A stretch of 64,000 bases of DNA from Methylacidiphilum kamchatkense Kam1 (GTDB taxonomy: Bacteria > Verrucomicrobiota > Verrucomicrobiia > Methylacidiphilales > Methylacidiphilaceae), in NCBI RefSeq assembly GCF_007475525.1, contig NZ_CP037899.1:1736001-1800000 (forward strand), given 5' to 3'. The notes below the pieces were generated by a model. It saw only the letters and a program-made list of their open reading frames with translations, did not search any database and was not told the DNA's origin. A program made the position numbers and the translations under genes. Of this stretch, positions 9,906 to 38,174 are shown in pieces. Each line of letters starts with the position of its first letter. Position 1 is the first letter of the stretch.

Positions 9906-10645
9906 CTAAAGGGCTTGGGGAAGTGATTGATTTTTAGCAATGATTCCTAATCTTTGAAAATTCTCTTTTAAATCTAAAACGGAAGGTTGTCCAAGGGCAG
10001 CAGGTTTGTCAATATACCCATAGACAAGTCGAGATCCTAAGGCTGACAAAACAATTCTTGAAAGATGGGAAAATTCGCCAATACCCATTAAAGACCACGG
10101 AATTTTAGGATAAGAAAAGAAAAGTTCTGTCAACTGCTTGAGTTGCCTGAGGTTCTCAATTCTTACGGCAACCTTTAGAAAATCTGGATCGAGTAATTTT
10201 ATGTCTGGAAGAGAAGCAATAAGCTTGTCTAAATCTATAAACTCAGACAAAGAATGAATGGAGAAGATAATTTTTTCCCTCCATTTTTATAAAGCGAATA
10301 AATTGGAGAGAGCTTTGAGTATTCTTGCCACTCCAAATCCACGCAATCGACATAAGGAAAAAATTTCTCAAACAGTTCGCTCCTTTCACAATCAGAGAGT
10401 TCGAGCATCCCCCCTTCTTTTTTAGATCTAATCGTAAGCAAAACAGGTAGGGAACGCTCTTGGAGAGATCTTTGTAATGCAGCGATTCCTTCTGTAAAAT
10501 TCAATTCTAGGAGAATGGAGTCCAGTCGGTACTCAATCAGATCAATAGGAAGATGATTGGAATAGGTGGCTTTCACACCATATTGGGTAGATATGGTTCC
10601 AACAACAATCAAAGGTTTTTGAGTTGGAAAGAAAGGTTGATTCAT
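9906..10645 (-). CDS. aroD: Type I 3-dehydroquinate dehydratase, interrupted by a one-base frameshift
   Basis: Two frames (10645-10235 and 10250-9906) together give one complete type I dehydroquinase of about 245 residues. The first half holds LIEYRLDS with the substrate-binding Glu and Arg. In the second, KIIFSIHSLSEF contains the catalytic His, FLKVAV the Schiff-base Lys, and MGIGEFSHLSR and AALGQPS the phosphate/carboxylate-binding Arg and Gln. The break is at a run of six T (10271-10276, A on the coding strand). Seven would read GGKKIIFSIHS without interruption. The enzyme makes 3-dehydroshikimate in the shikimate pathway. All catalytic residues are retained, so an assembly error is more likely than a pseudogene. 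It is divergent from mreB. Confidence 0.88.
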
Positions 10646-10813
10646 CTAAAAAATAATGTAAGAATAATTGCAGACAAAATTAATGTAAATTTTCTTTTTA
10701 AAGGTTCTGAAAATGGTGTTATGAAGGACATAGGATATCAGCAAAATTTCCCCTTTTTAAGAGGGATTCTCGCAATTATTAATAGTAAATCTTACTAACC
10801 TAACTTTTTTTGA

Positions 10814-11950: not shown

Positions 11951-11964
11951 CTAGTAATGGCTCC

Positions 11965-22131: not shown

Positions 22132-22335
22132 CACCTTTGCCTTGTAATTTCCTTGACAGTACTTTCTTATTTTATTAATTTGCATTCGAGCAATGGCTAC
22201 GTGTCAGCCAATGTCAAAAAGAAAAACAATGCAATGATATGCTTAAGAAGTCTATTGGCATGATGCGTAGGTCTTATTTATTCTTACAAAATAGTCTTAC
22301 ATGCAAAAAAGGCAGATGATAGATAGCTTATCTCT

Positions 22336-22611
22336 ATGTCATCGACAAATACTATTGAGCTAGAAGGAACGATAGTCGCTATCCTACCAGGGACGATGTT
22401 TCGTGTCGAACTCGACAACAAACATCAGGTTTTAGCCCATATTTCTGGGAAAATGAGGAAAAATTTTGTTCGGCTCACCTATGGGGATAGAGTGAAGCTA
22501 GAAATGTCTCCTCATGATTTGACAAAAGCAAGAATTTTATATCGCATTGATAGGATTCATCCCCCACCCCCTCCTGCCACACAGAAAAAGCCTCGTCAGA
22601 AACAAGTATAG
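22336..22611 (+). CDS. infA: Translation initiation factor IF-1
   Basis: The 91-residue protein is an S1/OB-fold IF-1: [36 protein letters not shown] and [21 protein letters not shown]. It blocks the ribosomal A site during initiation. It is about 18 residues longer than usual because of a Pro- and Lys-rich tail ([17 protein letters not shown]). It stands alone rather than in a ribosomal-protein operon. A perfect -35-like TTGACA occurs at 22153-22158 but I see no good matching -10. Confidence 0.93.
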
Positions 22612-22668
22612 AGAAAAAGTTTTTTGATTATTTAAAGACCAGTTTTTCTGTTTTTGGCATAGCGGGAC

Positions 22669-23544
22669 ATGGGGATAAATATGGAACCGATTCCTAGTAA
22701 AACAAAAAGAAGATTCTTTTTAAATGTTCTCATGTCTTCTTTTTTTAAAAAGAGAGAAGGAATCGAACATAGGCCCCAATTCCCAAAAGTAAATTCCGGA
22801 CAAATCTGTTTAACATGGGTAGGACACGCCTCTTTTCTTTTGCAAACCCATAAACATAACATTTTAATTGATCCAAATTGGTCGAATTGGATGCTTATCA
22901 TTAGGCGACTCAAAAGGGCAGGAATTGCTTTGGATGCTCTCCCATCAATCGACCTTGTCCTTATTACTCATGCACATTTTGATCATTTAAATAAAAAGAC
23001 TTTGAAAATGATTGCTAAAAATCAGCCTATCATTGTTCCCAAGGGGGTAAAGAACTTAGTGAGAGGCATTGGATTTGAAAAAATTTTAGAAATGAATTGG
23101 TGGGAAAAAATAGAAATAGATGGAACCGAAATTACATTTACTCCTGCTAAGCATTGGGGAGCAAGAGTTTTGGCTGATTTCTATCGTGGCTATGGAGGCT
23201 ATTGCCTCAAATTTGATGGAAGATCTGTCTATCATTGCGGAGATACCGCTTACTTTGAAAAATTTTCAGAAATTGGTGAGCGACTTCACCCAGAAGTTGT
23301 TTTGATGCCTATTGGTTCCTATGACCCACCTTCAGGACGTGACGTGCATATTAATCCAGAAAAAGCTGTTCAAGCCTTTCAAGAACTCCGAGGCAAAATA
23401 ATGATCCCAATGCATTTTGGAACTTATCGAATGAGTTATGAACCTCTCCACGAACCAGCCTATCGGCTCATCATGGCTGCGAAAAAAAAGGGTATTCTCT
23501 CACAAGTTTGTTTTCTGAATGAGGGAATTCCTACTATATTGTAA
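22669..23544 (+). CDS. Metallo-beta-lactamase-fold hydrolase (UlaG/NAPE-PLD-like)
   Basis: The 291-residue protein keeps the full metal-binding set of the MBL superfamily: HAHFDH (about residues 103-108), a His in AKHWGAR, an Asp in HCGDTAYF and a final His in PMHFGTY. The N-terminal LTWVGHASFLLQT strand and the DPNWS stretch match the UlaG/NAPE-PLD branch. NAPE-PLD relatives hydrolyse phosphodiester bonds in N-acyl phospholipids; the substrate here is unknown. About 40 basic residues precede the fold, without a clear signal peptide. ATG codons at 22669 and 22681 are both possible. Confidence 0.85.
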   Translation: MGINMEPIPSKTKRRFFLNVLMSSFFKKREGIEHRPQFPKVNSGQICLTWVGHASFLLQTHKHNILIDPNWSNWMLIIRRLKRAGIALDALPSIDLVLITHAHFDHLNKKTLKMIAKNQPIIVPKGVKNLVRGIGFEKILEMNWWEKIEIDGTEITFTPAKHWGARVLADFYRGYGGYCLKFDGRSVYHCGDTAYFEKFSEIGERLHPEVVLMPIGSYDPPSGRDVHINPEKAVQAFQELRGKIMIPMHFGTYRMSYEPLHEPAYRLIMAAKKKGILSQVCFLNEGIPTIL

Positions 23545-23765
23545 CTTTTATAGAGTGAAGAGGGCCGAAAGCCTAATTTCTTTCAAGAAATGGAATGCAA
23601 GCAGAGCTTTATGCCTTCCTCAGGTTTTTTGACTTGCAAGCTATCCCTCATGGAGCTAGTATTTCAACATAAACACGCACGTAATCGCCTTTGGACAAGT
23701 GGTGCCGTTTCCAAAAGGCAAAAGATTGTTAAGAAAACTACACGAATAATTTAAATTTTGAAATT

Positions 23766-23842
23766 GGAGCCATAGCTCAATTATTGGTTAGAGCACTGCC
23801 CTGTCACGGCAGGGGTTGCGGGTTCGAGCCCCGTTGGCTCCG
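23766..23842 (+). tRNA. tRNA-Asp (anticodon GTC)
   Basis: The acceptor stem is GGAGCCA with TGGCTCC and discriminator G (23766-23772 and 23835-23842). The D stem is GCTC/GAGC, and the anticodon stem CTGCC/GGCAG holds loop CTGTCAC, anticodon GTC. The T arm is GCGGG, TTCGAGC, CCCGT. All four stems pair and the invariant TTCGA is present. The 3' CCA is not encoded. Confidence 0.97.
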
Positions 23843-23867
23843 AGAAATTTTTGGTATTTGGCACATA

Positions 23868-24662
23868 GTGAAAGGAAGCCTGCAAAGCGCTTATTCTGCC
23901 CTTTTTTCAAGATCCATCACTTTATCTATTGAATTTTTAATTGGATGCTTTTGCCTTCTTGCTCCTATTTTTTTCTCTGCAGAATGCTACGCTCAAAATG
24001 AAGGACAAGTACTTGTTCGTTGGTATGGTCATGCTTTTGTCTATCTGATTTCTTCTACGGGTGTTCGAGTCGCCATTGATCCTTATGGGGAAGATACTGT
24101 TAAATATAAGTTTCCCGATCGACTGCAAGCTGATGTTGTTTTAATTAGTTCTGAATCTGAAGATAGATCAGCCGGTGAAAAACTATTCGGCACCCCACAA
24201 ATCTTTCGAAGCATAACGGCCGTAGGTCCCAACAATGCACGAGGTCATATTTTCAAAGGCATACAAACCTTTCGTGATAAATCTCAAGGATCCTTACATG
24301 GCAAAAATACAGCATTCGTCTTCAAGCTTGACAGAGTCAATTTTGCCCATCTAGGCGATTTAGCCCATCCCCTCAACCAAGACCAGTTAGCCGAATTCGG
24401 CAAGGTTGATGTTCTCTTTCTCCCAATTGGTAATGAAACGCTTTCTAACGAAGAATTAGACAAAATAGCCTTGGATCTTGGCGCTCGTATCATAATACCC
24501 ATCGCTTTTAAAACAAGTCTCAGTGGTGATCTTGACCTCCGTCCTCTAGCTAATTACTTGGAGGGGAAAAAAAATGTGCGTTTTATCGACAGTTCTGAAA
24601 TAATGGTCAGCCAACTAGACCTTCCTTCAGAACCTTGGATTTATGTCCTCAAAGAGCCATAA
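23868..24662 (+). CDS. Exported metallo-beta-lactamase-fold protein lacking the metal site
   Basis: From the GTG at 23868 the protein has 264 residues. There is a hydrophobic N-terminal signal (FLIGCFCLLAPIFFSAECYAQ), then an MBL-like fold beginning VLVRWYGHAFVYLIS and ending with IIIPIAFK. It resembles the neighbouring MBL protein in layout, and FAHLGDLAHPL matches the strand carrying the Asp ligand. The HxHxDH motif, however, is replaced by SSESEDR and the last His by PIAF. It is therefore probably not a hydrolase of the usual kind. The start is inferred; a longer frame would run through the tRNA. It may be expressed from the tRNA-Asp promoter. Confidence 0.72.
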   Translation: MKGSLQSAYSALFSRSITLSIEFLIGCFCLLAPIFFSAECYAQNEGQVLVRWYGHAFVYLISSTGVRVAIDPYGEDTVKYKFPDRLQADVVLISSESEDRSAGEKLFGTPQIFRSITAVGPNNARGHIFKGIQTFRDKSQGSLHGKNTAFVFKLDRVNFAHLGDLAHPLNQDQLAEFGKVDVLFLPIGNETLSNEELDKIALDLGARIIIPIAFKTSLSGDLDLRPLANYLEGKKNVRFIDSSEIMVSQLDLPSEPWIYVLKEP

Positions 24663-24997
24663 TTCTGCTACCTACCAATCGTAAGTTTGTTAAACTTTTT
24701 TGTGAGCAAAAGTTGAAATTTTTACTTTCTTAAAAAAGATAGAAAAAATAAAAAGGATAGTAGGAACCGATCCCTGTAGCCATAGGAGGTGGTAAGTCTT
24801 ATTGCTTGTAGGGAGGCTGCCAGTGGGAGAAGCAGCAACCAGGAGCACTGTCCATGAAGTATTGTAGTCCATGAGGTATAGAAGGGCCTAATAATATGGA
24901 ATCGATATCTTTTTTTTTAAGAGCTTTAGTTGGATATAACAACTTAATATTCCTACAACAATTGGCATTAATGTAAAAAGAAAGGAGAGAAGGTATT
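24663..24997. other. Intergenic region upstream of purD
   Basis: There is no gene I can support in these 335 bases. A strong ribosome-binding-like AGGAGGTGG (24784-24792) is followed by a 21-codon frame from a TTG at 24802, but the peptide is not recognisable. The stretch 24780-24890 is less AT-rich than its surroundings and may be a gene remnant. AAGGAG at 24982-24987 is the ribosome binding site that fixes the GTG start of purD at 24998. Confidence 0.45.
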
Positions 24998-26299
24998 GTG
25001 AAGGTTCTCGTAGTTGGTGGCGGTGGCAGAGAGCATGCACTCTGTTGGTCATTTAAAAAAGATCCGACTGTAAAAAAGATTTTTGTTGCACCAGGCAATG
25101 CTGGGACCGAAGAATTCTGTACTAATCTCCCCATTGGGATCTATGACATGGATAATCTTTTTCATTGGGCTAGGGAAAATCGACCAGATCTCACAGTAGT
25201 AGGTCCAGAAGCGCCTCTTTGCGATGGGATTGCCGATAAATTTGAATCAATCGGGCTGAAAATCGTTGGCCCCAAGAAAAGGGCAGCTAGACTAGAAGGC
25301 AGTAAAGCATGGACCAAAGAACTTATGGTCCATTACAAAATCCCAACTGCTGAAGCTAGAATCTTTGAAAACCCTATCGATGCCATCCATTTTAGCAAAA
25401 GTTTTCATTTTCCCCAAGTTATTAAAGCCGATGGGCTTGCTTCAGGCAAAGGAGTTCTGATTGTTCATGATCCTACTCAGGCTGAAAACTCCATTCGCAA
25501 GTTAATGGATCAAAAAATCTTCGGAGCTGCCTGCAAAAAGATTCTTATTGAAGAATTTCTCGAAGGGATAGAGCTTTCGCTTTTTGTCCTTCTGGATGGT
25601 CAAAACTATCGGGTTTTGGCAGCGATTCATGACTATAAAAAGGCTTTTGACTTTGACAAAGGTTTGAATACAGGAGGAATGGGTGCCTTTTTCCCAAGTC
25701 CAATCTTTGATGCCTCCCTACAGAGTTCTATAGAGAAAAAAATCCTTTTGCCCCTTCTGGAGGCGTTCCAAAAAGAGCAGATTATATATAAAGGCATTCT
25801 CTATGCTGGTTTAATGATTACTCGCTTTGGCCCAGCTGTTTTGGAGTTTAATATCAGACTTGGAGATCCTGAGGCTCAGGTTTTGATTCCAGCATTACAA
25901 ACCTCTTTTTTAGAAATCGCTCAGGCTCTCACAGAAACAAAACTGGAAGCACTAAAGATTCAGTTTAATGAAAACCTTCACTATGTTGGTGTCGTCGTGG
26001 CTGCCCAAGGTTATCCGGAACATATTGAAATAGGCAAAGAAATTACCCTCAACGAACAGGGTCTTACTGAGGAGGAACGGAAGCAAAGCTTGTTGTTTCA
26101 TTCGGGAACAAAAAAGATAGACGGCAGGCTTGTCTCCTCAAGTGGCAGAGTGTTATGTTCGGTAGGCTGGGCTCAATCCCTGGAAGAAGCGAAAAAAATG
26201 GCGTATCGTCGAATAGATACCATCCATTTTGAGGGGATGTTCTACAGGAAGGACATCGGCCAACTGCATATTCCTTCGTTCTTTTTAAAGCAGGTTTAG
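24998..26299 (+). CDS. purD: Phosphoribosylamine-glycine ligase
   Basis: This is a 433-residue ATP-grasp enzyme. The N-terminus KVLVVGGGGREHALCW is the PurD Rossmann motif. PELVVGPEAPL-like (here LTVVGPEAPLCDGIAD), KADGLASGKGVLIV, NTGGMGAFFPSP and FNIRLGDPEAQVLIP are diagnostic. It makes glycinamide ribonucleotide in the second step of purine synthesis. It starts with GTG, supported by a strong AAGGAG 10 bases upstream. No other pur gene is adjacent. Confidence 0.97.
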   Translation: MKVLVVGGGGREHALCWSFKKDPTVKKIFVAPGNAGTEEFCTNLPIGIYDMDNLFHWARENRPDLTVVGPEAPLCDGIADKFESIGLKIVGPKKRAARLEGSKAWTKELMVHYKIPTAEARIFENPIDAIHFSKSFHFPQVIKADGLASGKGVLIVHDPTQAENSIRKLMDQKIFGAACKKILIEEFLEGIELSLFVLLDGQNYRVLAAIHDYKKAFDFDKGLNTGGMGAFFPSPIFDASLQSSIEKKILLPLLEAFQKEQIIYKGILYAGLMITRFGPAVLEFNIRLGDPEAQVLIPALQTSFLEIAQALTETKLEALKIQFNENLHYVGVVVAAQGYPEHIEIGKEITLNEQGLTEEERKQSLLFHSGTKKIDGRLVSSSGRVLCSVGWAQSLEEAKKMAYRRIDTIHFEGMFYRKDIGQLHIPSFFLKQV

Positions 26300-26384
26300 C
26301 AAAGGATGAAAAAATACTAATTAGTTTTTCTCAGACATTCGGGATCCACTTGCATCTTTTTAGTACTCTCATTATATATATAGC

Positions 26385-27290
26385 ATGTTCAAGCGTGTAT
26401 TTCTGTTAATTTTGACCAACATTGCCGTCATCGTTTTACTAACGCTCTTTATATCTATTTTTCATCTGGATCGTTGGTTAACCGCCTATGGAATAGATTA
26501 TTGGTCGTTATTCCTTTTCTCCTTAGTGGTAGGTTTTACAGGCAGTTTTATTTCGCTGGCCATCTCGAAATGGATGGCTAAAATGGCCTATAACATTCAG
26601 GTTATTCAACAGCCATCTAATGAAGCGGAAAGATGGTTGTTGGAAACAGTCAGGGAACTAGCCAACAGGGCCAATATCCCTATGCCCGAAGTCGGCATCT
26701 ATGAAAGTCCTGAAGTCAACGCCTTTGCGACTGGGCCATCTCGGTCTAATGCCCTGGTAGCAGTCAGCACAGGCATCCTAGAGCATATGAATAAAAAGCA
26801 AATCGCTGGGGTGCTCGGCCATGAGATTACTCATATTAGCAATGGCGATATGGTCACAATGACCTTGTTACAAGGGGTAGTGAATACTTTCGTAGTATTT
26901 CTTTCTCGGATTATAGGCTTTTTTATAGACCGTCTTTTCAGCCGGAATGATGAAAGAGAATCGATCGGTATCGGTTTTTATATGGGAATGTTTATCTCTG
27001 AAATTGTACTAGGTCTTTTAGCTTCCTTTATTGTTGCCTGGTATTCTCGAATGAGGGAATTTCGTGCCGATGCGGGTGGGGCGCATTTGGCAGGTAAAGA
27101 GGCTATGCTTTCGGCTCTCAAAAAACTAAAACAGATTATGGAGGGAGAATCGGCTTTTATTGATGAACGAGCGCCCGCCTTAAACACTTTCAAAATCAAT
27201 GGTCGACCTGGAGGAATCCTTGCTCTTCTGGCCACCCATCCGCCGCTTGAGGAAAGAATTAAAGCTCTAGAAAATCTCCCAGAGGAATAG
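26385..27290 (+). CDS. htpX: Membrane-bound zinc metalloprotease HtpX (M48)
   Basis: The 301-residue protein has two N-terminal membrane helices and then the M48 domain. The zinc-binding HEITH (GVLGHEITHISNGD) lies near residues 146-150, with two more hydrophobic segments and the third ligand Glu in REFRADAGGA. It ends with a THPPLEERIKAL motif typical of HtpX. It removes damaged membrane proteins and is often stress-induced. Length and topology are standard. Confidence 0.95.
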   Translation: MFKRVFLLILTNIAVIVLLTLFISIFHLDRWLTAYGIDYWSLFLFSLVVGFTGSFISLAISKWMAKMAYNIQVIQQPSNEAERWLLETVRELANRANIPMPEVGIYESPEVNAFATGPSRSNALVAVSTGILEHMNKKQIAGVLGHEITHISNGDMVTMTLLQGVVNTFVVFLSRIIGFFIDRLFSRNDERESIGIGFYMGMFISEIVLGLLASFIVAWYSRMREFRADAGGAHLAGKEAMLSALKKLKQIMEGESAFIDERAPALNTFKINGRPGGILALLATHPPLEERIKALENLPEE

Positions 27291-27433
27291 AAAAAAGAAG
27301 GTTTGTAAAAAGCTCTTCCTAAAGAGACGAGGCTACAAAAGAAAATAGTTTACTGCTGCAATAAAAGCCAGAAGTCTTCTTCCTAAAAAAGGGGCAGAAC
27401 GCTTTATCTCTTATTGTTTAATTTCTCTCGGTC

Positions 27434-28876
27434 TTAATCGAGGTTAAACGATAAATACTTCGTTTCTAAAAACTCTTTTATACCCCACTGCCCTCCTTCC
27501 CTTCCTATTCCAGACTCTTTGATTCCACCGAAAGGAGCTTGACAACAGGAAGGCCTCCCATCGTTTATTCCAACAATTCCAAAACGGAGAGCCTCGGATA
27601 GACGAAAAGCTCTTTTGAGATCAGAAGTCATGACATAAGAAGCCAAGCCATAATTGGTGGCATTGGCCCAACTAATAACTTCCCTTTCCATTTCGAAAGG
27701 AATGACTGGCAAAACTGGACCAAAAATTTCCTCACTAAGTATTCTTGCCGAGGGATCAGAGACCCAAACAATGGTGGGAGCAAAATACAACCCTTGGGAT
27801 TTCCCTCCACAGAGAATTTTTCCACCTTTTTCCAAGACATCAGCAAGCAATGAATGAATTTTGTGAAGGGATTGTTCGCCAACCAGCGGACCAATATCGG
27901 TACTTGGAAGCAATGGATCTCCGAGGACAAGCTTTTTTGTCTCTTCAACTAGTTTGCTGCAAAAGGGCTCGCTGATCTTTTTTTCGACATAAAGCCTATT
28001 GACGGCAACGCACGCTTGTCCTGCATTCCTAAATTTTGCCTGAATGGCTTCTCTAATAGCGGTATCTATGTCGGCATCAGCAAAGACAATCATGGGAGCA
28101 TTCCCTCCCAACTCTAAAAGAACGCCTTTTAAAGTTTTAGCTGCTTCCCTATAGATAGCCTTCCCTACGGGTATGCTGCCAGTAAATGAAATTTTTCTAA
28201 TTCTAAAATCATCAAAAAATACCTTACAAAGCCTTTCGGGATTAGCCGTTGGAAGCACTTGTAAAACTCCAGGAGGCCCTCCAGCCTTATCCCAAAGAAA
28301 GGCAAGAAAGGTTGCAGTCAATGGACTGTGTTCAGCAGGTTTAATGATGATGGTACACCCGGCGGCAATGGCCGCAGCTGCTTTTCTTGTAACCATTGCA
28401 GCTGGGAAATTCCATGGGGTAATGGCTAATACAGGCCCAACAGGTTCATAAAGTACCACGATTCGTTTGGAAGGCATCGGAGCAGGAATAGTCAACCCAT
28501 AAATACGTTTAGCTTCCTCAGCATACCACCAGACAAAACTAGCAGCATAATCGACTTCCTTTTTTCCTTCTTTAAGAGGCTTCCCCATTTCCAAAGCCAT
28601 GATTTCAGCCAACTGATTTTTTTCTTCCACAATCAATTGAGCCCAACGCGATAAAATTTGATATCGGGTATCAACCGAAGTAGCTTTCCACAGTTCAAAA
28701 GCTTCCTCAGAGGCATCAATTGCTCGAAGAGCTTCCTCTGGACCACAATCAGCAACCAACCCTATAACTCTCCCATCGATAGGACTGATCAGCTCAAAAC
28801 TATCCAATGTGTCCACCCAGCTGTTCCCTATCTTAGCGAGTTTAATAACTTTTTCATTTGTAAGTTGAGAATACAT
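27434..28876 (-). CDS. gabD: NAD(P)-dependent aldehyde dehydrogenase, succinate-semialdehyde dehydrogenase type
   Basis: The 480-residue protein has the ALDH core. ITPWNFPAAMVTRKAAAAIAAGC precedes the cofactor site, IIKPAEHSPLTA contains the binding Lys, ISFTGSIPVGKAI is the Rossmann turn, and LELGGNAPMIVF carries the general-base Glu. The catalytic Cys is in RNAGQACVAVNR, and EEIFGPVLPV and PFGGIKESGIGREGG complete the fold. The pattern is closest to GabD, which oxidises succinate semialdehyde to succinate. That substrate is inferred, since ALDH specificity cannot be read reliably by eye. No GABA transaminase is adjacent. The gene lies 50 bases downstream of the two-repeat exported protein. 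Confidence 0.82.
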   Translation of the reverse strand: MYSQLTNEKVIKLAKIGNSWVDTLDSFELISPIDGRVIGLVADCGPEEALRAIDASEEAFELWKATSVDTRYQILSRWAQLIVEEKNQLAEIMALEMGKPLKEGKKEVDYAASFVWWYAEEAKRIYGLTIPAPMPSKRIVVLYEPVGPVLAITPWNFPAAMVTRKAAAAIAAGCTIIIKPAEHSPLTATFLAFLWDKAGGPPGVLQVLPTANPERLCKVFFDDFRIRKISFTGSIPVGKAIYREAAKTLKGVLLELGGNAPMIVFADADIDTAIREAIQAKFRNAGQACVAVNRLYVEKKISEPFCSKLVEETKKLVLGDPLLPSTDIGPLVGEQSLHKIHSLLADVLEKGGKILCGGKSQGLYFAPTIVWVSDPSARILSEEIFGPVLPVIPFEMEREVISWANATNYGLASYVMTSDLKRAFRLSEALRFGIVGINDGRPSCCQAPFGGIKESGIGREGGQWGIKEFLETKYLSFNLD

Positions 28877-28926
28877 AATGACTTAGCTTTTAGAAAAAGA
28901 ATTTCTATTAACAAAAAAGCAAGAAC

Positions 28927-29745
28927 TTATGGGACCGTTACAGGCTTATCCTTTTCAAAAGAATATCGTTCGACCTGAATCCAGCGGTCCCCTTCTTTGA
29001 CAGGCTCTTTATGGATCTTTACATCTTTAACAATCAGTTTGCCACTTTTTTCATCGAACCAAAAGTCTATGTCATAAAATTTTTCTGGATCGCCTTTTTC
29101 GCGAAAATCTGTACAGGCAAAATATTCTTTTCCAGGGATTCTTCTCACTGGATTATGAATTTCAACAAATTCCAAAGGAATATCTTTTCCTGTCTTAGGA
29201 TCTTTCAAATAAAAGACTCCTCCTCCTTCCTTCAACTTTTGGGCTATATACTCATGAATGGCTGCTTTAACTTCCCAAGCACGCTTTTGTTCATACTCCC
29301 CAGGATGTTCTGTAGAGGGTAACCACCACCAAGGAATAGGATTACGCGTTTGTAAAACCCATTTATCTCCTTCCCTCTTTGGAAATTTATATACCCTTAT
29401 ATCCATTAAGAGTAGCTGGGTGCCTTTAGGTTTCCACCAAAAATCGAGTTCATAAGGCTTAGAAGCATCCAAACTATCATGAAATTGAACCGTTGCAAAG
29501 TATCCATATCCAGCCAAGGACCGGACCATACGAACTTTTTCATAGACAAGAGAGAGTTCTTGATAAGACACAGGATCGCGAAATTGGAATATGCCATTGG
29601 TAGATTTTTCTGATATATATTTTTGAACTTCTCGCTCAATTTCAGCTTTCGTAAATTCAGTTTCCTGGCAAAGTCCATGGCTAGTGCTAAGAGCCAATAG
29701 AAAAATAGCGATTAAAACACCTTTTTTCAAAAAATACGCATTCAC
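28927..29745 (-). CDS. Exported protein made of two tandem copies of an unrecognised domain
   Basis: The 272-residue protein has a signal peptide (about residues 1-26, ending HGLCQE). Two related blocks of about 95 residues follow, roughly 33-130 and 165-262. Each begins with a helix (VQKYISEK; IHEYIAQK) and continues through F-x-x-D-P (FQFRDP; YLKDP), a short linker to EYFA/GYFAT (YGYFATVQF; KEYFACTDF) and a DFW strand (YELDFWWKPK; YDIDFWFDEK). Each ends K-x-P-x-x-EGD-x-W (FPKREGDKWV; EPVKEGDRWI). A proline/tryptophan-rich linker separates them. I do not recognise the family and assign no function. It is the last gene of a minus-strand group containing DUF420, SCO1 and an ABC-2 exporter. Confidence 0.75.
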   Translation of the reverse strand: MNAYFLKKGVLIAIFLLALSTSHGLCQETEFTKAEIEREVQKYISEKSTNGIFQFRDPVSYQELSLVYEKVRMVRSLAGYGYFATVQFHDSLDASKPYELDFWWKPKGTQLLLMDIRVYKFPKREGDKWVLQTRNPIPWWWLPSTEHPGEYEQKRAWEVKAAIHEYIAQKLKEGGGVFYLKDPKTGKDIPLEFVEIHNPVRRIPGKEYFACTDFREKGDPEKFYDIDFWFDEKSGKLIVKDVKIHKEPVKEGDRWIQVERYSFEKDKPVTVP

Positions 29746-29823
29746 TTTAATGATCCTTTAGAAATAATGGATGAGCGATCCTAGAGCATTGTCAAGAAAT
29801 GTTTTCACAGGCAATGACAATTA

Positions 29824-30249
29824 CTAAGTTTTTGTGAACCAATGGTAGAGCATAAAATAGACTAAAACCCCAGTAATGGACACATAAGCCCAGCTAGGCC
29901 ACAGCAATTTGGTAATCCTGGTATGTTTCTGGAATTGGCCTGTGAGGGCGTAGTAAACAGCAAAAAAAATAGCTGGGAGGTTGACTATGGCAAGGATGGT
30001 GTGCGTTGTCAATATCGTAAAATAGACAGGCCTGGACCAATCGTGCCTAGGAAATGGAGTGGCTCCATGATAATAATGGTAAAGAAGATAACAAGTAAGA
30101 AAAGCAATAGAGAGGCTCACAGCAATGAGCATCGTCCACTTATGCAGGTCCTGTCTGCCACGTTTAATGGCAATATAGCCAAACAAAAGAAAACAGAAAG
30201 TCAGGGCATTTAAGGAAGCATTAATAGCAGGCAAATCTTTTACTTGCAT
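29824..30249 (-). CDS. DUF420 (YozB/CtaM-like) membrane protein
   Basis: The 141-residue protein has four membrane helices. Histidines lie near the membrane faces (DLHKW, LLYHYYHG, TTHTILA, LYHWF) and the conserved turn RPVYFTILTTHTILA is typical of DUF420. In Bacillus and Staphylococcus members of this family (CtaM/YozB) help mature haem-copper oxidases. The neighbouring SCO1 gene, 85 bases upstream, agrees with a role in cytochrome oxidase assembly. The histidines might bind haem or copper, which is inference. Confidence 0.82.
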   Translation of the reverse strand: MQVKDLPAINASLNALTFCFLLFGYIAIKRGRQDLHKWTMLIAVSLSIAFLTCYLLYHYYHGATPFPRHDWSRPVYFTILTTHTILAIVNLPAIFFAVYYALTGQFQKHTRITKLLWPSWAYVSITGVLVYFMLYHWFTKT

Positions 30250-30334
30250 CGAATTGAAGAGTCTTTTCTTCTAGAAGAGAAAAAGCAAGGCAAATGACTT
30301 TAAAATCCAGCTCGCTTTGCAGTTTTCTCTTTTC

Positions 30335-31012
30335 TTATGTTCCTTTGTTCGTCTTTGAAGATTCTTGTAATAAAAGAAGAATATCTATGGAAATATCCCT
30401 TGGCGTTTTTTGATTGAGTCCATCATAATATTTCCTAATAAATCCATCCTGGTCTATTAATACAAATTGAGTCGAGTGAAAGAATTTTCCTTCCGCTTGC
30501 ACTTTATCTTTAGGATTCTCCCCCATCCCCAATGCTAGCCCCTTGACCACAAAATCCTGAACTTCTTGAGGTTTCCCCGTTACAAAGAACCAAAAAGAAG
30601 GGTCCGCATGATATCCCTCAGCGTATTTTCTCAAAACAGCTCCAGAATCTTCTTCTGGATCAATAGAAATGGACACTAGCCTTACTCCTTCAATTTTTCC
30701 AAGAATACTTTGCAACTGAGACATCCTAAGTGTTTCGGTCGAACAAGGACCAGGACAGTGTGTATAAATGAGATCAGCTACCCAAATTTTCCCCTTTAAG
30801 TCGTTGGCAGTTATCGTAACCCCATCGGATCGAACAAAAGAAAAAGGGGGAATTTGCCTAATTTTAGGCATGTTGGACCTCGCTTTCCAGTATTTTACCT
30901 GAAAGTAGCTGGATGTTAGGTTCAGGAAAAAGGAAATAGCAACAAGAGATATAAATAGAACAACGAGGGTCTTAATAAGACTTTGAGAGTTTTCTTGGCG
31001 TTGCAGGCTCAT
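30335..31012 (-). CDS. SCO1/SenC copper-binding protein
   Basis: The 225-residue protein has an N-terminal membrane anchor (about residues 14-32) and a thioredoxin-like domain. It carries the copper ligands CPGPC (THCPGPCSTETLRM) and a later His in FHSTQFVLIDQDG. The sequence GKIWVADLIYTHCPGPC matches SCO1. It delivers copper to the CuA site of cytochrome c oxidase or acts as a thiol reductant for it. Its ATG overlaps the stop of the ABC permease by 4 bases, indicating one operon. Confidence 0.92.
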   Translation of the reverse strand: MSLQRQENSQSLIKTLVVLFISLVAISFFLNLTSSYFQVKYWKARSNMPKIRQIPPFSFVRSDGVTITANDLKGKIWVADLIYTHCPGPCSTETLRMSQLQSILGKIEGVRLVSISIDPEEDSGAVLRKYAEGYHADPSFWFFVTGKPQEVQDFVVKGLALGMGENPKDKVQAEGKFFHSTQFVLIDQDGFIRKYYDGLNQKTPRDISIDILLLLQESSKTNKGT

Positions 31013-31803
31013 GGATTTTTCACTTTTATTTTATCGGTCACCCAAATACTTATTGCAGTGACAAGCACAAAAAATATAAATGTTATAACAAAATACATAG
31101 CTAACGTGTGGAGAGCAAGAGTAGAATGTGGAGACAACCAAAACCGTAACATCTCTAATCCGTAATACAATGGATTAAGAAAAATCAGCGTTTTAATCCA
31201 CCCATAGGCTCCTTCAGCAGGAAACAAGGCTCCTGATAAGAGCCATAAAGGCATCAGGAAGAGATTCATCAAAGCATGATAGCCTTGAACAGAATCAAGT
31301 GGCCATGCAAGAATATAGCCCACCGCAGTCATGGCCATTCCTAGCAAGAATAAAGTAACCACCACTCCAAGCAATCGCTCTAGACTAAATGGGATACCTA
31401 GAGGCAGAGACAAAAAATAAACAAGTAATGCTTGCAACAAGCCTAAGGAAGTGCCGCCTAAGAGCTTCGAAAAGACAATCGAACTACGCGATATTGGGGC
31501 ACACAGCACCCCTTGTAGGAAACCTTCCTTTCTGTCCTCGATGATGGAAATAGTCGAGAAAATAGCTGTAAAAAGAAGGATGAGAAGAAGCATCCCTGGG
31601 AAAAAGTATAGCAGATAGTTCGGTTCATTGGATGAATGGAAAGATTTTCCTACCCCAGATCCGATTAAAAGCCAAAATACCAAAGGAGTACCAAGGGCTC
31701 CTATGATTCTATTTTTTTGGCGCAGGAATCGGACAACCTCTCGCATCCATAGCGTATAAATAGCTAAAGGGAGATTTTCCATTCTTCTAATGGGTTGTTT
31801 CAT
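31009..31803 (-). CDS. ABC-2 type exporter permease
   Basis: The protein of about 264 residues has six membrane helices and the ABC-2 pattern. TLWMREVVRFLRQKNRIIGALGTPLVFW starts the family domain (in part), SIIEDRKEGFLQGVLCAPISRSSIVFSKLLGG is the cytoplasmic coupling region (in part), and the last helices contain MPLWLLSGALFP, a strong ABC-2 signature. It forms the channel for the ATPase encoded just upstream. An ATG at 31803 overlaps the ATPase gene by 17 bases; 31821 and 31782 are other in-frame starts. The substrate is unknown; SCO1 and DUF420 downstream suggest respiratory-chain assembly. Confidence 0.88.
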   Translation of the reverse strand: MKQPIRRMENLPLAIYTLWMREVVRFLRQKNRIIGALGTPLVFWLLIGSGVGKSFHSSNEPNYLLYFFPGMLLLILLFTAIFSTISIIEDRKEGFLQGVLCAPISRSSIVFSKLLGGTSLGLLQALLVYFLSLPLGIPFSLERLLGVVVTLFLLGMAMTAVGYILAWPLDSVQGYHALMNLFLMPLWLLSGALFPAEGAYGWIKTLIFLNPLYYGLEMLRFWLSPHSTLALHTLAMYFVITFIFFVLVTAISIWVTDKIKVKNP

Positions 31804-32818
31804 CTTCTTTATCTCCAACAATAAATTGACGACCCGTCAAATGGAGAAAGACATCTTCTAAAGAGGTTTTAGCAATCGTCATAGCCGTAATATAACTCTG
31901 ATGCCTTTCCAACAAATCTGCTGCAAATTGAAGAAGGGCTTGTGGACTTTCATCCTTTTTCGATTCAACAACAAGCGCCCCGTTGAGTTTTACAGGTGCC
32001 CTCCCAAGGCTAAGGATATCCTTTTCTAATATATCTGTAGAAGATGACCGAATCGTAAGAACGAGTCCTGGGAGTAAAGACCTAAGCCGATCTGGACTAT
32101 CCCAGGCAATGACTTTTCCTTGGTCTAAGATTAACACCTTATCGCATCTTTCTGCTTCATCCATCAGATGAGTCGTAACTAAGATGGTCAGATTTAATTC
32201 TTTTCTCAGAGTAAAAAGATAGTTCCAAATATCTCTGCGTGCGGCCGGATCGATTCCCGTACTTGGCTCATCCAGAATTAAGACTTCCGGCCGATGCAAT
32301 ATCCCTTTTGCCACTTCAACCCTTCTTTGGAGCCCTCCCGATAAAGTCTCCACAAGATCTTTTTTTCTTTCAGAAAGATGAAAGAGCTTTAATAATTCGT
32401 CGATCCGATTCCGCAACTCTTTGCCATGTAAATTATACAAGTGGCCTTGATGCAACAAATTCTCTTCGACAGTTAATTTTTTATCTAGGCTGGGTGACTG
32501 AAAGACAATACCCATGATGGCACGAGCCGAAGCACTTTCTTCAGGATAAGAAAACCCAGAAATATTGACGGTTCCAGAGGACAAAGGTAATAAAGTGGAA
32601 AGAATTCTAAAAAGGGTTGTTTTCCCACTGCCATTAGGACCCAGAATCCCTGCAATCATCCCCTCTGCCACCTCGAAACTGACATTATTTAAAGCTAAAC
32701 GCTCTCCATATGAAAAAGTTAGATTTTTTACTTCTACTTTGGTTCGCCGTATAATCTTTTCTGTTCTTACAGATTCAGTTTGAATAGGAAAATCTGTACT
32801 CATTTTAAAAATTTCCAA
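31787..32818 (-). CDS. ABC-2 type exporter ATP-binding protein
   Basis: The 343-residue protein has one ABC ATPase domain: Walker A GPNGSGKTT (about residues 58-66), Q-loop GIVFQSPSL, signature LSGGLQRRVEVAKG, Walker B VLILDEPSTGID and switch His in LVTTHLMDEAERC. A C-terminal extension of about 80 residues with SLEDVFLHLTGR is typical of the DrrA/CcmA-like exporter subfamily. It energises the downstream permease, whose start overlaps this gene. ATG codons at 32818 and 32803 are possible starts. Confidence 0.93.
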   Translation of the reverse strand: MEIFKMSTDFPIQTESVRTEKIIRRTKVEVKNLTFSYGERLALNNVSFEVAEGMIAGILGPNGSGKTTLFRILSTLLPLSSGTVNISGFSYPEESASARAIMGIVFQSPSLDKKLTVEENLLHQGHLYNLHGKELRNRIDELLKLFHLSERKKDLVETLSGGLQRRVEVAKGILHRPEVLILDEPSTGIDPAARRDIWNYLFTLRKELNLTILVTTHLMDEAERCDKVLILDQGKVIAWDSPDRLRSLLPGLVLTIRSSSTDILEKDILSLGRAPVKLNGALVVESKKDESPQALLQFAADLLERHQSYITAMTIAKTSLEDVFLHLTGRQFIVGDKEDETTH

Positions 32819-32846
32819 CTCGAAAAAAAATGCTACTAACTACTTC

Positions 32847-34220
32847 CTAATTAACATGACTTTTTTGGATGTTCAATTCACGATATTCTCCAAAGTCTTG
32901 CCGATTTTGCTTTTGAAAACTCAAATAGCCATGAAGAATCTTTGCCGTTTTTTCTCCCACTCCTAAATTCTCTAAAAACAAGGCTTTTGCCCTTTCTCCT
33001 AACAACTTTCTTGCCTTTTCCTCTGCAATCAGACTCTTTAGTTGATGCGAAAACTCCTCCTTGTTTTGCACTACCACAATAGCTTTTTGATCCACAAAAA
33101 GATTCAATAATAATTTAAAGTTTTGCATATTTGGTCCGACTATAATCGCTTTTCCTGCTTTGGCAGCCTCTATAAAGTTCTGCCCACCTTTGGCTGTCAA
33201 ACTTTTCCCTACAAAAACTAGATCAGCTTTTTCATAGAGAGAACGCAACTCTCCAGTAGAATCGACAATAAGGATATCAAAATCGCCTTCTGGATTCTTC
33301 TCCTTTTCCAAGCTGGAGCGCAATTTCGAATTAAGTCCAAATTGATCACAGAGCTTTTTGATCTCTTTAGCTCTTTCGGCATGTCGAGGAGCCAGGACTA
33401 AACGCAAATTCGGCCAATGTTTTCTAAGCTTGATAAACTCCCTCAAAAGAATATCCTCTTCTCCCCGATGCGTACTGCCTCCCAAAACAACAAGGTTTTT
33501 TGAATCCCAACCAACTTTTGTCCACCACCCTAAAGAAAGTTCCGTTTGGCTTCTATAATTAGCGACGTCAAACTTCATACTCCCTAATCGAAAAATTCTT
33601 TCGGGTGGAAACCCTACCTTTACAAATCGTTCGATTTCAGAATCATCCGTTACTAATATCAAACTCAACTTGTTCAGATAAGGCTTCATAAACCAAGAAA
33701 AAATTTTATACCACCTTTCCGTTCTTTCTGATAGTCGAGCATTGCACAGCAAAACAGGAATCTTCCTTTCAGAGGCTTCTGCCAAGAAATTCGGCCATAT
33801 TTCAGTCTCGATAAGCACCACTAGCTTTGGGTGAAGATAAGAAAAAGTGCGACGGACAGCCCATGGAAAATCGAGAGGAAAATAAAAGACAAAACATTTT
33901 TCTTTGGGTTCCGATCCAGCAAGTCGAAAACCGGTAGCAGTGGTTGTAGAAAAGGCAACTTTGATATTAGGATCTATTTTCCAAAGCTCTTTTAATATGA
34001 CTTTTCCGATCATCACTTCTCCCACACTCACTCCATGGATCCACAAATCTACCCCTTGCCCATCGTTCAGCTCTCGCTTTGGATACAATCCTAATCTTTG
34101 GTCAATTCCATCGAAAGGATTGCCCCTTCGTTTCAGTTTTATAAAATAATAGGGAAGGCAAAGGATGGTAAAAAGTCCAAACAAGAAGGAATAAAGCCAA
34201 CGGAGAAAAAAAGACTTCAT
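32847..34220 (-). CDS. waaA: 3-deoxy-D-manno-octulosonic acid (Kdo) transferase
   Basis: This 457-residue GT30-family glycosyltransferase has an N-terminal membrane segment. DLWIHGVSVGEVMIGKVIL contains the conserved acceptor-site Glu. VLIETEIWPNFL, PVLLCNARLSERTERWY, VVLGGSTHRGEEDILL and FVGKSLTAKGGQNFIEAAKAG are WaaA signatures. It attaches Kdo to lipid A on the inner membrane, so the organism makes lipopolysaccharide. It lies between the recombinase gene (15-base gap) and the ABC exporter, probably in one transcript. Confidence 0.94.
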   Translation of the reverse strand: MKSFFLRWLYSFLFGLFTILCLPYYFIKLKRRGNPFDGIDQRLGLYPKRELNDGQGVDLWIHGVSVGEVMIGKVILKELWKIDPNIKVAFSTTTATGFRLAGSEPKEKCFVFYFPLDFPWAVRRTFSYLHPKLVVLIETEIWPNFLAEASERKIPVLLCNARLSERTERWYKIFSWFMKPYLNKLSLILVTDDSEIERFVKVGFPPERIFRLGSMKFDVANYRSQTELSLGWWTKVGWDSKNLVVLGGSTHRGEEDILLREFIKLRKHWPNLRLVLAPRHAERAKEIKKLCDQFGLNSKLRSSLEKEKNPEGDFDILIVDSTGELRSLYEKADLVFVGKSLTAKGGQNFIEAAKAGKAIIVGPNMQNFKLLLNLFVDQKAIVVVQNKEEFSHQLKSLIAEEKARKLLGERAKALFLENLGVGEKTAKILHGYLSFQKQNRQDFGEYRELNIQKSHVN

Positions 34221-34235
34221 ATTATCTAGATGTGT

Positions 34236-35183
34236 TTACTGCGCTCTGGGATGCGCGCGCTGATAAGAGGCTCTTAAATGCTCCGCACTTACTGAGGTAT
34301 AAATTTGAGTTGTCGATAAATGAGAATGACCTAGTAACTCTTGGATACTCCTCAAATCCGCTCCTCCTTCCAATAGATGCGTGGCAAAGGTATGTCTTAA
34401 CTTATGAGGGCTTATCGACTGATCCAATCCAGCAATCATAAGGTATTCTTTCAAAGCAAGTTGGAAAAAACGCGGAGTCAATGGCTTCCCTCTTGAAGAA
34501 ACGAAAAGAAACTCGGAGTCATAAGGACAAACGTTAAGGTAATCGCAGATAGCAGCGGTAGCAACCTCTCCAATGATGCAAAATCTTTCTTTTTTCCTTT
34601 TCCCTTTAACAAGAAGAGCCAGTTCAGCAGGAAAAAAATTTTTTCTCTTTAATGCGCACAGCTCTCCAACTCGAATACCCCCACCATAAAGGGTTTCTAA
34701 CCACGCCTGGTCTCTTTTCCATTGCCATTCTTTCCATTTGGATTTTGTTCCTTTTTCCTTCTCCTTTTCCCATTTCTGGCAAGGCGCATCGAGTAAGGCG
34801 CGAATCTGCTCCAAACTAAGATATCTAGGAAGGGGCCGAAAGAGTTTGGGTAAGGAAAGATTAGAAAGAGGACTTTCTTTTCCTTGTTCTTGATGTTGAT
34901 AATAAAATTTAAAAAACGAACGAAGGGCAGCAAATCTCAATCGGATGGAACTCTGCTTTAAATCAGGTTTTTTAGAAAGAAAATACAGATAGCTTCTGCA
35001 TTCTTCCTTCCCTACCTCTCTACAAGATTGCCATTTTCCCCAGGAAAAAAATTCTCTTAATGCCTGCCCGTAGTTCCGTAGGGTATAAGAAGAAAAATTT
35101 TTCTCAGAAAGATAATGGATAAATTTCTTCAGAGACTCTGCTACTTCTGGTGATAAAAGGCCTTTTTCTTTTTCTAATGCCAT
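34236..35183 (-). CDS. xerC: Tyrosine recombinase XerC/XerD type
   Basis: The 315-residue protein has an N-terminal core-binding SAM-like domain (FIHYLSEKNFSSYTLRNYGQALREFFSW, in part) and the catalytic domain. All active-site residues are present: Arg in YGGGIRVGELCAL, Lys in LLVKGKRKKER, His-x-x-Arg in SPHKLRHTFATHLL, His in LLGHSHLSTTQ and Tyr in IYTSVS. Xer proteins resolve chromosome dimers at dif. XerC versus XerD cannot be decided from this window. There are no integration sites or mobile genes nearby, so a housekeeping role is favoured. Confidence 0.9.
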   Translation of the reverse strand: MALEKEKGLLSPEVAESLKKFIHYLSEKNFSSYTLRNYGQALREFFSWGKWQSCREVGKEECRSYLYFLSKKPDLKQSSIRLRFAALRSFFKFYYQHQEQGKESPLSNLSLPKLFRPLPRYLSLEQIRALLDAPCQKWEKEKEKGTKSKWKEWQWKRDQAWLETLYGGGIRVGELCALKRKNFFPAELALLVKGKRKKERFCIIGEVATAAICDYLNVCPYDSEFLFVSSRGKPLTPRFFQLALKEYLMIAGLDQSISPHKLRHTFATHLLEGGADLRSIQELLGHSHLSTTQIYTSVSAEHLRASYQRAHPRAQ

Positions 35184-35342
35184 CGAAACAGTCCTCTTTC
35201 TATCATTCTTGTTTATTAAGAAAAAGAAAAGAGAAAAAAGAACTTTTACTTTCAGCAGCCATTTGATGTGTTACAGACACCCTTCTTAGGCCATAGGATA
35301 TAGAAAAAATGTTGAAATTTCTTTCAAAGGTTTTTCATTTAG

Positions 35343-38174
35343 ATGAATCAAAAAACCAAGCAACTGTTAAACTTTCAAACTAAAAAAAAATTGGTGAAAC
35401 ATTTACCTCATATTTCCGCTGAACACGATTTTTCCATTTTATCGAAAACCATCCATTTTTTAGGCGATACCTTAGGACGGGTCATTACGAATTTAGAAGG
35501 TAAAAAAATACTCGCCATAGAAGAAACTATAAGGAAATTGGCCAAAGAAAGCCGACAAGGCAAAGAAGAAGCCACTAAAGCTCTCCTACGTATAGTCCAA
35601 GGGTTAGATACTGACATCGCCTATCGAATGGCTATGGCTTTTACTTGTTACTTCGAATTGGTCAATATTGCTGAAGAAAATTATCGAGTTCGGATTTTAA
35701 AGAAAAGACGGGCAAACCAACTGCTCTATCCCAAAAAGGCTATTCCTAAAGAATCGATCGAATCGGCTTTGTTTGAGTTAAAAAAAGCGAAAGTTACCAA
35801 AAAGCAAATCCAAGAAATTTTAGAAAAAATGGAGATCGTTCTTGTTTTCACTGCCCATCCAACAGAAATCAAAAGGCAAACGGTATTAAATAAGCTTTGC
35901 GAAATATCCTTCCTGTTAAAACAAGCATTTGGTACTGTCAGACTGCCTCAAACCATTCAGACCGAAATAGAACGATTAATCGCTTCACTGTGGCTAACGG
36001 AACGGTCGAGATCAAAAAATCCTCAGGTCTTAGATGAAGTCCGAACAGGACTCTGGTATTTTGAACATACCCTATGGGATGTCATCCCTGAGCTCCATAA
36101 TGAATTCAAAAGAGTCCTTCATATTTATTACCCTGGAGTTTCCTTAAAACCCAGATGGATCTCCTTTGGCTCATGGATTGGAGGAGATAGGGACGGGAAC
36201 TTTCAAGTGACAACAGCCACAACCGCCGCTACACTTATTTTGCAGCGCAATCTAGCCCTAAAAAAAATTGCTCAAAGCCTTCTTCAACTTTCCGAAGTCT
36301 TCTCTGTTTCTAGTCAACATATTGCCCCCTCCAAAAATGTCCTTGGGCTTTTAGAGGAAAAACTCAAAGTTTTTCCCTCTCTTAAAGAAGAATACGAGAG
36401 TTACCCCAACGAGCCATACCGCCTATTGTTATTAGCTCTAAAAAAAGAAGTCGAAATGGCTATCGATACTATCACTGAAAAAGATCTGCTCGATTTCTTC
36501 ACCGAACCGCTGCCTCGTTGCTTCACACTGAATACCATAAACGCCGTTCTAGAAGCAATTGAAGAGAATTTTAAGGCACCAAATACTCGAATTTTTCTTG
36601 AGGGAGAATTTCAAAAACTAAAACAGAGAATCGAAGTCTTTGGCCTCCATATTTTCTCTTTAGATATCCGGCAACATTCCTCTATGCATCAAGAAGCTAT
36701 TGAAGAGCTACTCCAACTCAATGGCAATGGTGTCAAATCCTACGCGACTCTCAAAGAAGAAGAAAAGGTCGAAGTTCTAAATAGCTTGTTCCAGAAGCCT
36801 TTCCCTTCTCTTCCATCTCTTTACAGCCATGGAAGCGAAAAGCTCAAGGAAATCCTAGGGCCTATCCTCGTTTTTTCTAGATCAATACGGATCTTAGGAA
36901 AAGAAGCATGCGGATGTTATTTGATCAGCATGACTTCTGGCTTATCTGATATCCTCGAAGTCCTTTATCTTTGTGAAATATGCGATTGTTTCATTGATAT
37001 TGCTCCACTTTTTGAAACTCTTTCGGACTTAAAGTCAGCTCCAAAGATTCTAGAGGATCTTCTCTCTCACCCACTTTATAGAAAGTATCTGCAAAAACGA
37101 AACAACAAACAGATAGTCATGCTGGGCTATTCGGATAGTAACAAAGATTGCGGATATATGACTTCTAATTGGTGGCTTTATCACATACAAGAAAGGCTCC
37201 ATGAAGTTTGTCAATCGCACGGAGTCGATCTTATCCTTTTTCATGGGAGAGGGGGGACCATTGCCCGCGGAGGAGGTCCAGCAGCAAAAGCTATTTTAGC
37301 CCAACCCAAAGGGCTTTTAGACGGAAAAATTAGGATTACAGAGCAAGGAGAAGTGCTGTCCACCCGTTATCATGATTTCGATATCGCTTTTCGAATCCTC
37401 GAACAAACCGCCTATGGGGTACTCCTTGCTATTTATAAGAGTAGAAAAAGAAGCGTGATTCCAAAATCTTGGAAAACTATTATAGAGTCGATCGCCGAAA
37501 ATAGTTATGTTGCCTATACTCAATTGGTTCAAAATGAAGTCGATTTTTTGCGTTTTTGGCAAGAGGTCACCCCAATCAACGAAATCGGGTCTTTAAAAAT
37601 TGCTTCCCGGCCTATTTTCCGTTTTCAGTCTAAAAGTTTCGAAGATCTTAGAGCCATCCCATGGGTGTTCTCTTGGATGCAAACTCGGTTCGTTATTCCT
37701 GGCTGGTATGGCATAGGATCAAGTTTAAAAATAGCAATTGAATCTAGTCCTGAATCTTTATCCATCCTACGACAGATGTACGAAAAATGGCCTTTTTTTC
37801 AAACTGTCATAGATAATGCCCAACTTTCCCTCGCTAAAACAGATATTGACATTGCTAAACTGTATTGTTCGTTAGCCACCAACAGAAACCTCAGCGACAA
37901 AATATTTGCAATAATAGAATCAGAATACAAGCAAACGGTCGAAACTATCCTGAAAATAACCAATCAAACTTCCATTCTAGATCATGAGCCCATTCTTCAA
38001 AGATCTATCCGATTAAGAAATCCTTATGTAGATCCACTCAATTTTATTCAAGTAGAGATGATCCGAAGAAACCGCAGCGGCTCAATCACCGATCCAAATG
38101 AGATTGACAAGATCCGGTCAGTCATCGAATTAACTATCAATGGAATCAGCGCAGGGCTAAGAAACACTGGATAG
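35343..38174 (+). CDS. ppc: Phosphoenolpyruvate carboxylase
   Basis: The 943-residue protein has full PEPC length. The catalytic VFTAHPTEI is near residue 175, followed by GGDRDGNF, GYSDSNKDCGY and LFHGRGGTIARGGGPA with the essential His and Arg. The C-terminus RRNRSGSITDPNEIDKI to GISAGLRNTG replaces the usual AAGMRNTG end. It carboxylates PEP to oxaloacetate, replenishing the TCA cycle. It is divergent from the recombinase gene across 159 bases. Confidence 0.96.
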   Translation: MNQKTKQLLNFQTKKKLVKHLPHISAEHDFSILSKTIHFLGDTLGRVITNLEGKKILAIEETIRKLAKESRQGKEEATKALLRIVQGLDTDIAYRMAMAFTCYFELVNIAEENYRVRILKKRRANQLLYPKKAIPKESIESALFELKKAKVTKKQIQEILEKMEIVLVFTAHPTEIKRQTVLNKLCEISFLLKQAFGTVRLPQTIQTEIERLIASLWLTERSRSKNPQVLDEVRTGLWYFEHTLWDVIPELHNEFKRVLHIYYPGVSLKPRWISFGSWIGGDRDGNFQVTTATTAATLILQRNLALKKIAQSLLQLSEVFSVSSQHIAPSKNVLGLLEEKLKVFPSLKEEYESYPNEPYRLLLLALKKEVEMAIDTITEKDLLDFFTEPLPRCFTLNTINAVLEAIEENFKAPNTRIFLEGEFQKLKQRIEVFGLHIFSLDIRQHSSMHQEAIEELLQLNGNGVKSYATLKEEEKVEVLNSLFQKPFPSLPSLYSHGSEKLKEILGPILVFSRSIRILGKEACGCYLISMTSGLSDILEVLYLCEICDCFIDIAPLFETLSDLKSAPKILEDLLSHPLYRKYLQKRNNKQIVMLGYSDSNKDCGYMTSNWWLYHIQERLHEVCQSHGVDLILFHGRGGTIARGGGPAAKAILAQPKGLLDGKIRITEQGEVLSTRYHDFDIAFRILEQTAYGVLLAIYKSRKRSVIPKSWKTIIESIAENSYVAYTQLVQNEVDFLRFWQEVTPINEIGSLKIASRPIFRFQSKSFEDLRAIPWVFSWMQTRFVIPGWYGIGSSLKIAIESSPESLSILRQMYEKWPFFQTVIDNAQLSLAKTDIDIAKLYCSLATNRNLSDKIFAIIESEYKQTVETILKITNQTSILDHEPILQRSIRLRNPYVDPLNFIQVEMIRRNRSGSITDPNEIDKIRSVIELTINGISAGLRNTG

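Follow-up and report, generated by a model that had tools for sequence, protein, structure and literature searches.

An exported protein of Methylacidiphilum kamchatkense built from two copies of an unnamed domain that elsewhere accompanies [DE]HP-bearing exported proteins

Introduction

The gene at positions 28927-29745 of the window, the whole stretch of 64,000 nucleotides of the thermophilic, acidophilic methanotroph Methylacidiphilum kamchatkense Kam1 that was analysed, encodes a likely exported protein made of two diverged copies of one domain, and this two-copy protein belongs to a widespread, previously undescribed domain family. We tentatively regard it as a secreted, duplicated, enzyme-less member of that unnamed family, the job of which is tied to exported proteins bearing the tripeptide [DE]HP, a reading to which we give a little less than an even chance. 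The analysis itself establishes the duplication, its distribution, a predicted fold, the pattern of conserved residues and a link between [DE]HP genes and the domain; the reading is built upon these, with binding, a metal and the oxidase role being inferred. No earlier link was found among the unnamed domain, the exported transglutaminase-like enzymes that occur from Bacteroidota to Planctomycetota, and the short tag on neighboring exported proteins; a description of the [DE]HP motif, or of its association with the domain, was likewise not found in the literature. Should the tag indeed be read by the domain, a heptapeptide could be used to test what the enzyme family does. The methanotrophs gain an exported protein that is conserved in all genomes of the family searched and that in Methylacidiphilum lies beside copper and oxidase assembly genes.

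The two-copy protein and its internal duplication

The gene, its parts and its neighbors are located as follows.

28927..29745, minus strand: gene of the two-copy exported protein, 272 residues (open reading frame and translation; orthologues in 13/13 Methylacidiphilaceae genomes)
29668..29745, minus strand: residues 1-26, probable signal peptide lacking a lipobox (judged from the sequence itself)
29338..29646, minus strand: domain copy 1, residues ~34-136, in which the His and Cys conserved in copy 2 are missing (profile match, residue counts)
29281..29337, minus strand: linker between the copies, residues ~137-155, PIPWWWLPSTEHPGEYEQK, mostly predicted to be flexible (pLDDT <50 at mature residues 109-122)
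29299..29310, minus strand: EHPG motif, residues 146-149 (conserved in 13/13 orthologues)
28957..29280, minus strand: domain copy 2, residues ~156-263 (profile E 2.3e-45; AlphaFold2 pLDDT 83.5)
29011..29157, minus strand: stretch of copy 2 with the family-conserved His197, Cys211, Asp213 and His245 (residue counts)
29824..30249, minus strand: DUF420 protein (CtaM), the immediate upstream gene, gap 78 nt (PF04238, E 1.1e-39)
30335..31012, minus strand: SCO1/SenC protein (PF02630, E 1.3e-23)
31009..31821, minus strand: ABC-2 permease, with a 4-nt overlap with the start of the SCO1 gene (PF01061, E 1.6e-26)
31787..32818, minus strand: ABC transporter ATPase, upstream of the permease (open reading frame; genus-conserved order; named by sequence motifs)
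27434..28876, minus strand: aldehyde dehydrogenase family protein, next downstream, gap 50 nt (open reading frame; genus-conserved order; named by sequence motifs)

Translation starts at a GTG codon, and the N-terminus consists of a hydrophobic stretch followed by LCQETEF, which reads as a likely signal peptide of the ordinary type and lacks a lipobox. An earlier note on this DNA had proposed an internal duplication with substantial divergence, and the duplication is confirmed because the self-alignment scores far above shuffled sequences (Smith-Waterman score 177 against 28.99 +/- 4.96; none of 5000 shuffles reached 177 and the highest scored 59) and because BLASTP aligns copy 1 with copy 2 at E 6e-19. 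The halves are 31% identical across ~100 residues, and the landmarks that the note had listed in the same order in both halves coincide with this alignment. Within the Kam1 genome the domain profile matches each copy separately, at E 2.3e-45 for copy 2 and 1.5e-36 for copy 1; the rows of that profile included both window copies, and a single-sequence search links them to the family too.

The protein is present in all 13 Methylacidiphilaceae genomes searched, which cover three genera, and the other twelve orthologues are 48-95% identical to that of Kam1. Proteins with two domain matches were found only in this family among 387 sampled Verrucomicrobiota genomes. In a tree of 82 domain sequences, which has long branches and few columns, copies 1 and 2, 25 sequences in all, fall together in a single group (100/99), and the doubling therefore most simply occurred within the Methylacidiphilaceae lineage.

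Distribution of the domain family

The domain has no model in Pfam or NCBIfam. The two-copy protein matches no Pfam family at E <= 10, a comparison of 32 domain members with Pfam gave stray weak matches only, and a PADLOC search of the two-copy protein gave no match; the one PDB sequence match (2gta, E 0.015) is a single stray that we do not believe. The view of the earlier note that this is an exported protein of alpha/beta domains with no known family thus stands as far as these libraries are concerned, although the domain is not confined to the two-copy protein and is widespread. A single-sequence search reaches other Verrucomicrobiota at E 1e-8, and an alignment-based scan of contigs adds Kiritimatiellota, Planctomycetota, Bacteroidota, Nitrospirota, Myxococcota, Omnitrophota, Neomarinimicrobia and others.

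Nearly all members of the wider family are exported proteins of ~450-550 residues in which the domain lies N-terminal to a transglutaminase-like enzyme domain (PF01841 at E 1e-22 and 7e-24 in the two proteins scanned). The enzyme motifs are preserved, with the Cys and Asp motifs intact in 41/41 proteins and the strict His motif in 39/41, the other two having GYHCWAEF. The N-terminal domain of these proteins is homologous to that of the two-copy protein (family profile E 1e-36 to 1e-40), but they differ in bearing the enzyme domain and in having a [DE]HP partner alongside. In Methylacidiphilaceae the two-copy protein was found with neither of these. It has no PF01841 Cys-His-Asp enzyme domain and is not a member of the transglutaminase-like superfamily. 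A partner enzyme encoded elsewhere in Kam1 was considered and rejected, as that genome has no exported transglutaminase-like enzyme of the domain-associated kind and its sole Transglut_core match above the cut-off looks cytoplasmic.

Stand-alone domain proteins of ~165-250 residues occur in Brocadia-type Planctomycetota and in Kiritimatiellae. In loci L111 and L114 the stand-alone gene directly precedes a transglutaminase-like gene, and a similar reading frame follows it in the Kiritimatiellae locus L063. Two loci of Brocadia-type Planctomycetota (L093, 7444-8660; L109, 638-2007) each hold two neighboring stand-alone domain genes, both with EHP motifs, and we regard such pairs as the split counterpart of the two-copy protein.

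Association with [DE]HP-bearing exported proteins

A [DE]HP gene lies within 1 kb of 35 of the 41 domain-transglutaminase genes, whereas for control anchors within those stretches the count is 18 of 180; the 41 loci are related and not phylogenetically independent, so that the Fisher p of 2.5e-21 is a guide only. At the remaining six loci no such gene is within reach, which counts against the proposed tie. The partners are small exported proteins, most often lipoproteins, that carry EHP or DHP repeats or a PKDHPAH end, and about half of them end in [DE]HP[AST]H, mostly as PKDHPAH. Their bodies vary, and include short lipoproteins, several fasciclin domains, Cys-rich proteins and, in one partner, an HMA domain (PF00403, E 3e-9).

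The pairing of a domain-transglutaminase gene with a small exported [DE]HP protein recurs across many phyla (loci L064-L092 and L100-L108). Four of the planctomycetotal partners (L102, L105, L107 and L108) have in common an unnamed domain with the pattern CLGC...QC.KYGHRHAL...KEHH and [DE]HP tails.

Independently of the domain, the DNA of the 387 Verrucomicrobiota genomes was scanned for the pattern P-K-D-H-P-[AT]-H-stop. It occurs in seven genomes, once in each, and all seven are among the 16 that bear the domain (Fisher p 5e-11); every match directly precedes the enzyme gene and shares its strand, and the reversed pattern, used as a control, has zero matches in the same 387 genomes. Because the PKDHP[AT]H-stop tag is single per genome and only adjoins the domain gene, genome-wide tag sorting of the PEP-CTERM type was rejected for the Verrucomicrobiota sample. 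A noisier enrichment was seen for EHPEHP in 246 Planctomycetota genomes, where it is found in 8/16 domain genomes versus 42/230 others (p 0.006) and where three of the eight matches sit on contigs other than that of the domain.

The motif is also found within the domain proteins themselves. From one to five [DE]HP occur in 12/14 stand-alone proteins, flanking the domain on one side or on both, and the linker of the two-copy protein has WWW[LV]Px[ST]EHPG in 13/13 orthologues. A single [DE]HP arises in ~5% of shuffles of the two-copy protein, which weighs against the tentative reading, and the argument therefore rests on the conservation of EHPG and on its position immediately ahead of a domain, which the stand-alone proteins also show. 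Also adverse is that no EHP-repeat protein was found in Methylacidiphilaceae, where the two spacings tried gave scattered matches only; a double EHP match that recurs across these genomes belongs to a maltosyltransferase (GlgE-like) and not to a free EHP protein.

Conserved residues and proposed role

The AlphaFold2 model of copy 2 (mean pLDDT 83.5) has a long helix and a curled antiparallel sheet. In a model of the full mature protein (pLDDT 79.8) both copies fold, copy 1 at mostly 74-93 and without aligned relatives, and the linker at mature residues 109-122 falls below 50. Docking of EHPG onto a copy is not supported, the linker being predicted to be disordered, and this too counts against the tentative reading.

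His197, Cys211, Asp213, Asp225, Asp227, His245 and Trp255, numbered as in the window protein, are nearly invariant across the family outside copy 1. Among enzyme-type, stand-alone and copy 2 sequences, where the 17 classed as stand-alone include three truncated enzyme-type loci, the first His (His197) is present in 40/40, 15/17 and 12/12, and the Cys (Cys211) in 40/40, 17/17 and 12/12, and both are absent from all 13 sequences of copy 1; the second His (His245) is present in 40/40, 17/17 and 12/12, and in 7/13 of copy 1. When the strand register is derived manually from the DSSP assignment of the copy 2 model, His197, Cys211, Asp213, Tyr224 and His245 are predicted to share one face.

The domain may bind its [DE]HP partner by way of this face with its conserved His, Asp, Cys, Tyr and His, and a metal ion could possibly be held between the histidines of the partner and the face. 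In the wider family the domain is fused to, or lies next to, a transglutaminase-like enzyme whose Cys-His-Asp motifs are intact, and its usual partner is the small exported [DE]HP protein. In Methylacidiphilaceae no such enzyme is linked to the domain, which is doubled; copy 2 retains the site, copy 1 has lost it and probably serves as a scaffold, and the single EHPG forms part of the linker. A more specific scheme, which we hold possible and on the doubtful side, is that of a widespread, undescribed extracytoplasmic system in which the cystatin-like domain reads a [DE]HP tag (clearest as the C-terminal PKDHPAH) that is borne by an exported partner of its own, after which the fused transglutaminase-like enzyme modifies, cleaves or cross-links that partner, the Methylacidiphilaceae having kept only the doubled reader.

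Gene neighborhood and possible metal ligands

The order ABC ATPase, ABC permease, SCO1, DUF420, two-copy gene and aldehyde dehydrogenase is constant in the four Methylacidiphilum species compared. The place after SCO1 and DUF420 that had been noted earlier is thus conserved in the genus, but the claim that the two-copy gene closes its run does not hold, because it is followed after 50 nt by a co-oriented aldehyde dehydrogenase gene, an arrangement that is also conserved in the genus. DUF420 corresponds to CtaM, on which the activity or assembly of heme-copper oxidases depends in Bacillus and Staphylococcus (PMC9145763). Since the two-copy gene follows SCO1 and CtaM in Methylacidiphilum, a part in copper delivery or in the assembly of heme-copper oxidase outside the inner membrane may be suggested for this genus. 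The two-copy protein is linked to these assembly factors by gene adjacency and has no Pfam similarity to them.

A survey of neighbors, as the earlier note had proposed, upheld the linkage within the genus and failed to extend it, as SCO1 and CtaM are absent from beside the two-copy gene in the 15-kb stretches of two sister genera; the neighborhood is accordingly not constant across Methylacidiphilaceae, which speaks against the tentative reading. The second genus has the two-copy gene in divergent orientation to a gene of the PQQ methanol/ethanol dehydrogenase family, ~115 nt away, and a CopC-like gene on the other side of the two-copy gene, the CopC match being below the Pfam cut-off. In the third, neither the SCO1/CtaM set nor the PQQ/CopC-like set was seen near it. 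As these neighbors vary between genera, the copper role that they suggest is a hint only. In the second-genus locus (L094) the PQQ-type gene is followed by genes for a binding-protein-like protein and a cytochrome c (7467-12454); the locus also contains a direct repeat (1-2406 and 3257-5660, spacing 3256 nt) that covers the CopC-like gene and its neighbor; the repeat is identical over 300 nt where measured, its inner open reading frames agree further, and it is either real or an assembly artefact.

For the tentative reading, the HMA partner, SCO1 and CtaM in one genus and the CopC-like neighbor in a sister genus are hints of a metal. They could also be taken to mean that the domain, like the His-Pro tails, is simply a metal ligand, with the partner a metallochaperone or buffer, no specific recognition of a peptide, and the Methylacidiphilum protein buffering copper or passing it to an oxidase or to methane monooxygenase. 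The conserved His, Cys, Asp and His that the hand-derived register places on one face, the histidines of the partner tails, the HMA partner and the SCO1, CtaM or CopC-like neighbors in two of the three genera would all suit such a carrier; we nonetheless think it unlikely, as the motif is a precise tripeptide that is often single at the very C-terminus, where it would be a poor metal sink, and as some partners have fasciclin domains. These last suggest surfaces rather than metals and count against the tentative reading as well.

Fold comparisons

A Foldseek search with the domain gave no significant match. With VIA-align the best folds, obtained for each copy separately, were cystatin and NTF2-like, namely the designed cystatin fold 4r80 (Z 8.4, 76 residues, 2.9 A) and NTF2-like proteins at ~7. 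Both copies are thus predicted to have a cystatin/NTF2-like fold, a shared arrangement and not proof of kinship. The likeness to 4r80, NTF2 (1gy6) and multicystatin (4lzi) lies in a helix followed by a curled antiparallel sheet in both copies; there is, however, no sequence relation to them, and Z scores of this level need not mean kinship. The two-copy protein has no QxVxG cystatin motif and does not fall within the cystatin family PF00031. Chains with two such domains are found in latexin and fetuin-B (tandem cystatin-like) and in OrfG and TcpC (tandem NTF2-like, VirB8-type), which are weak Foldseek matches, but they differ in domain placement (rmsd >15 A), have no sequence relation to the two-copy protein and have no known function in common with it.

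A cystatin-like predicted fold that is fused to, or beside, a papain-fold enzyme raises the idea of an inhibitor or pro-domain, which would keep the transglutaminase-like cysteine enzyme covered at its active site and be displaced by the [DE]HP partner, the two-copy protein then being a free inhibitor of cysteine enzymes. Such a role is improbable given the missing QxVxG motif, the nearly equal fold scores of NTF2-like ligand binders, and a Kam1 genome whose one above-cut-off transglutaminase match looks cytoplasmic. A small-molecule binder of the NTF2/SnoaL sort, with EHP as a passenger of exported linkers, would fit the NTF2-like proteins among the top fold matches (Z ~7) and is likewise improbable in view of a [DE]HP association far above the control and of a PKDHP[AT]H end that occurs nowhere else in 387 Verrucomicrobiota genomes.

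A further open reading frame in the window

In a region (window positions 22000-36000) where ARAGORN predicts no tRNA, the open reading frame at 23784-24662 starts with MVRALPCHGRGCGFEPRWLRE (23784-23850), a peptide typical of a translated tRNA gene.
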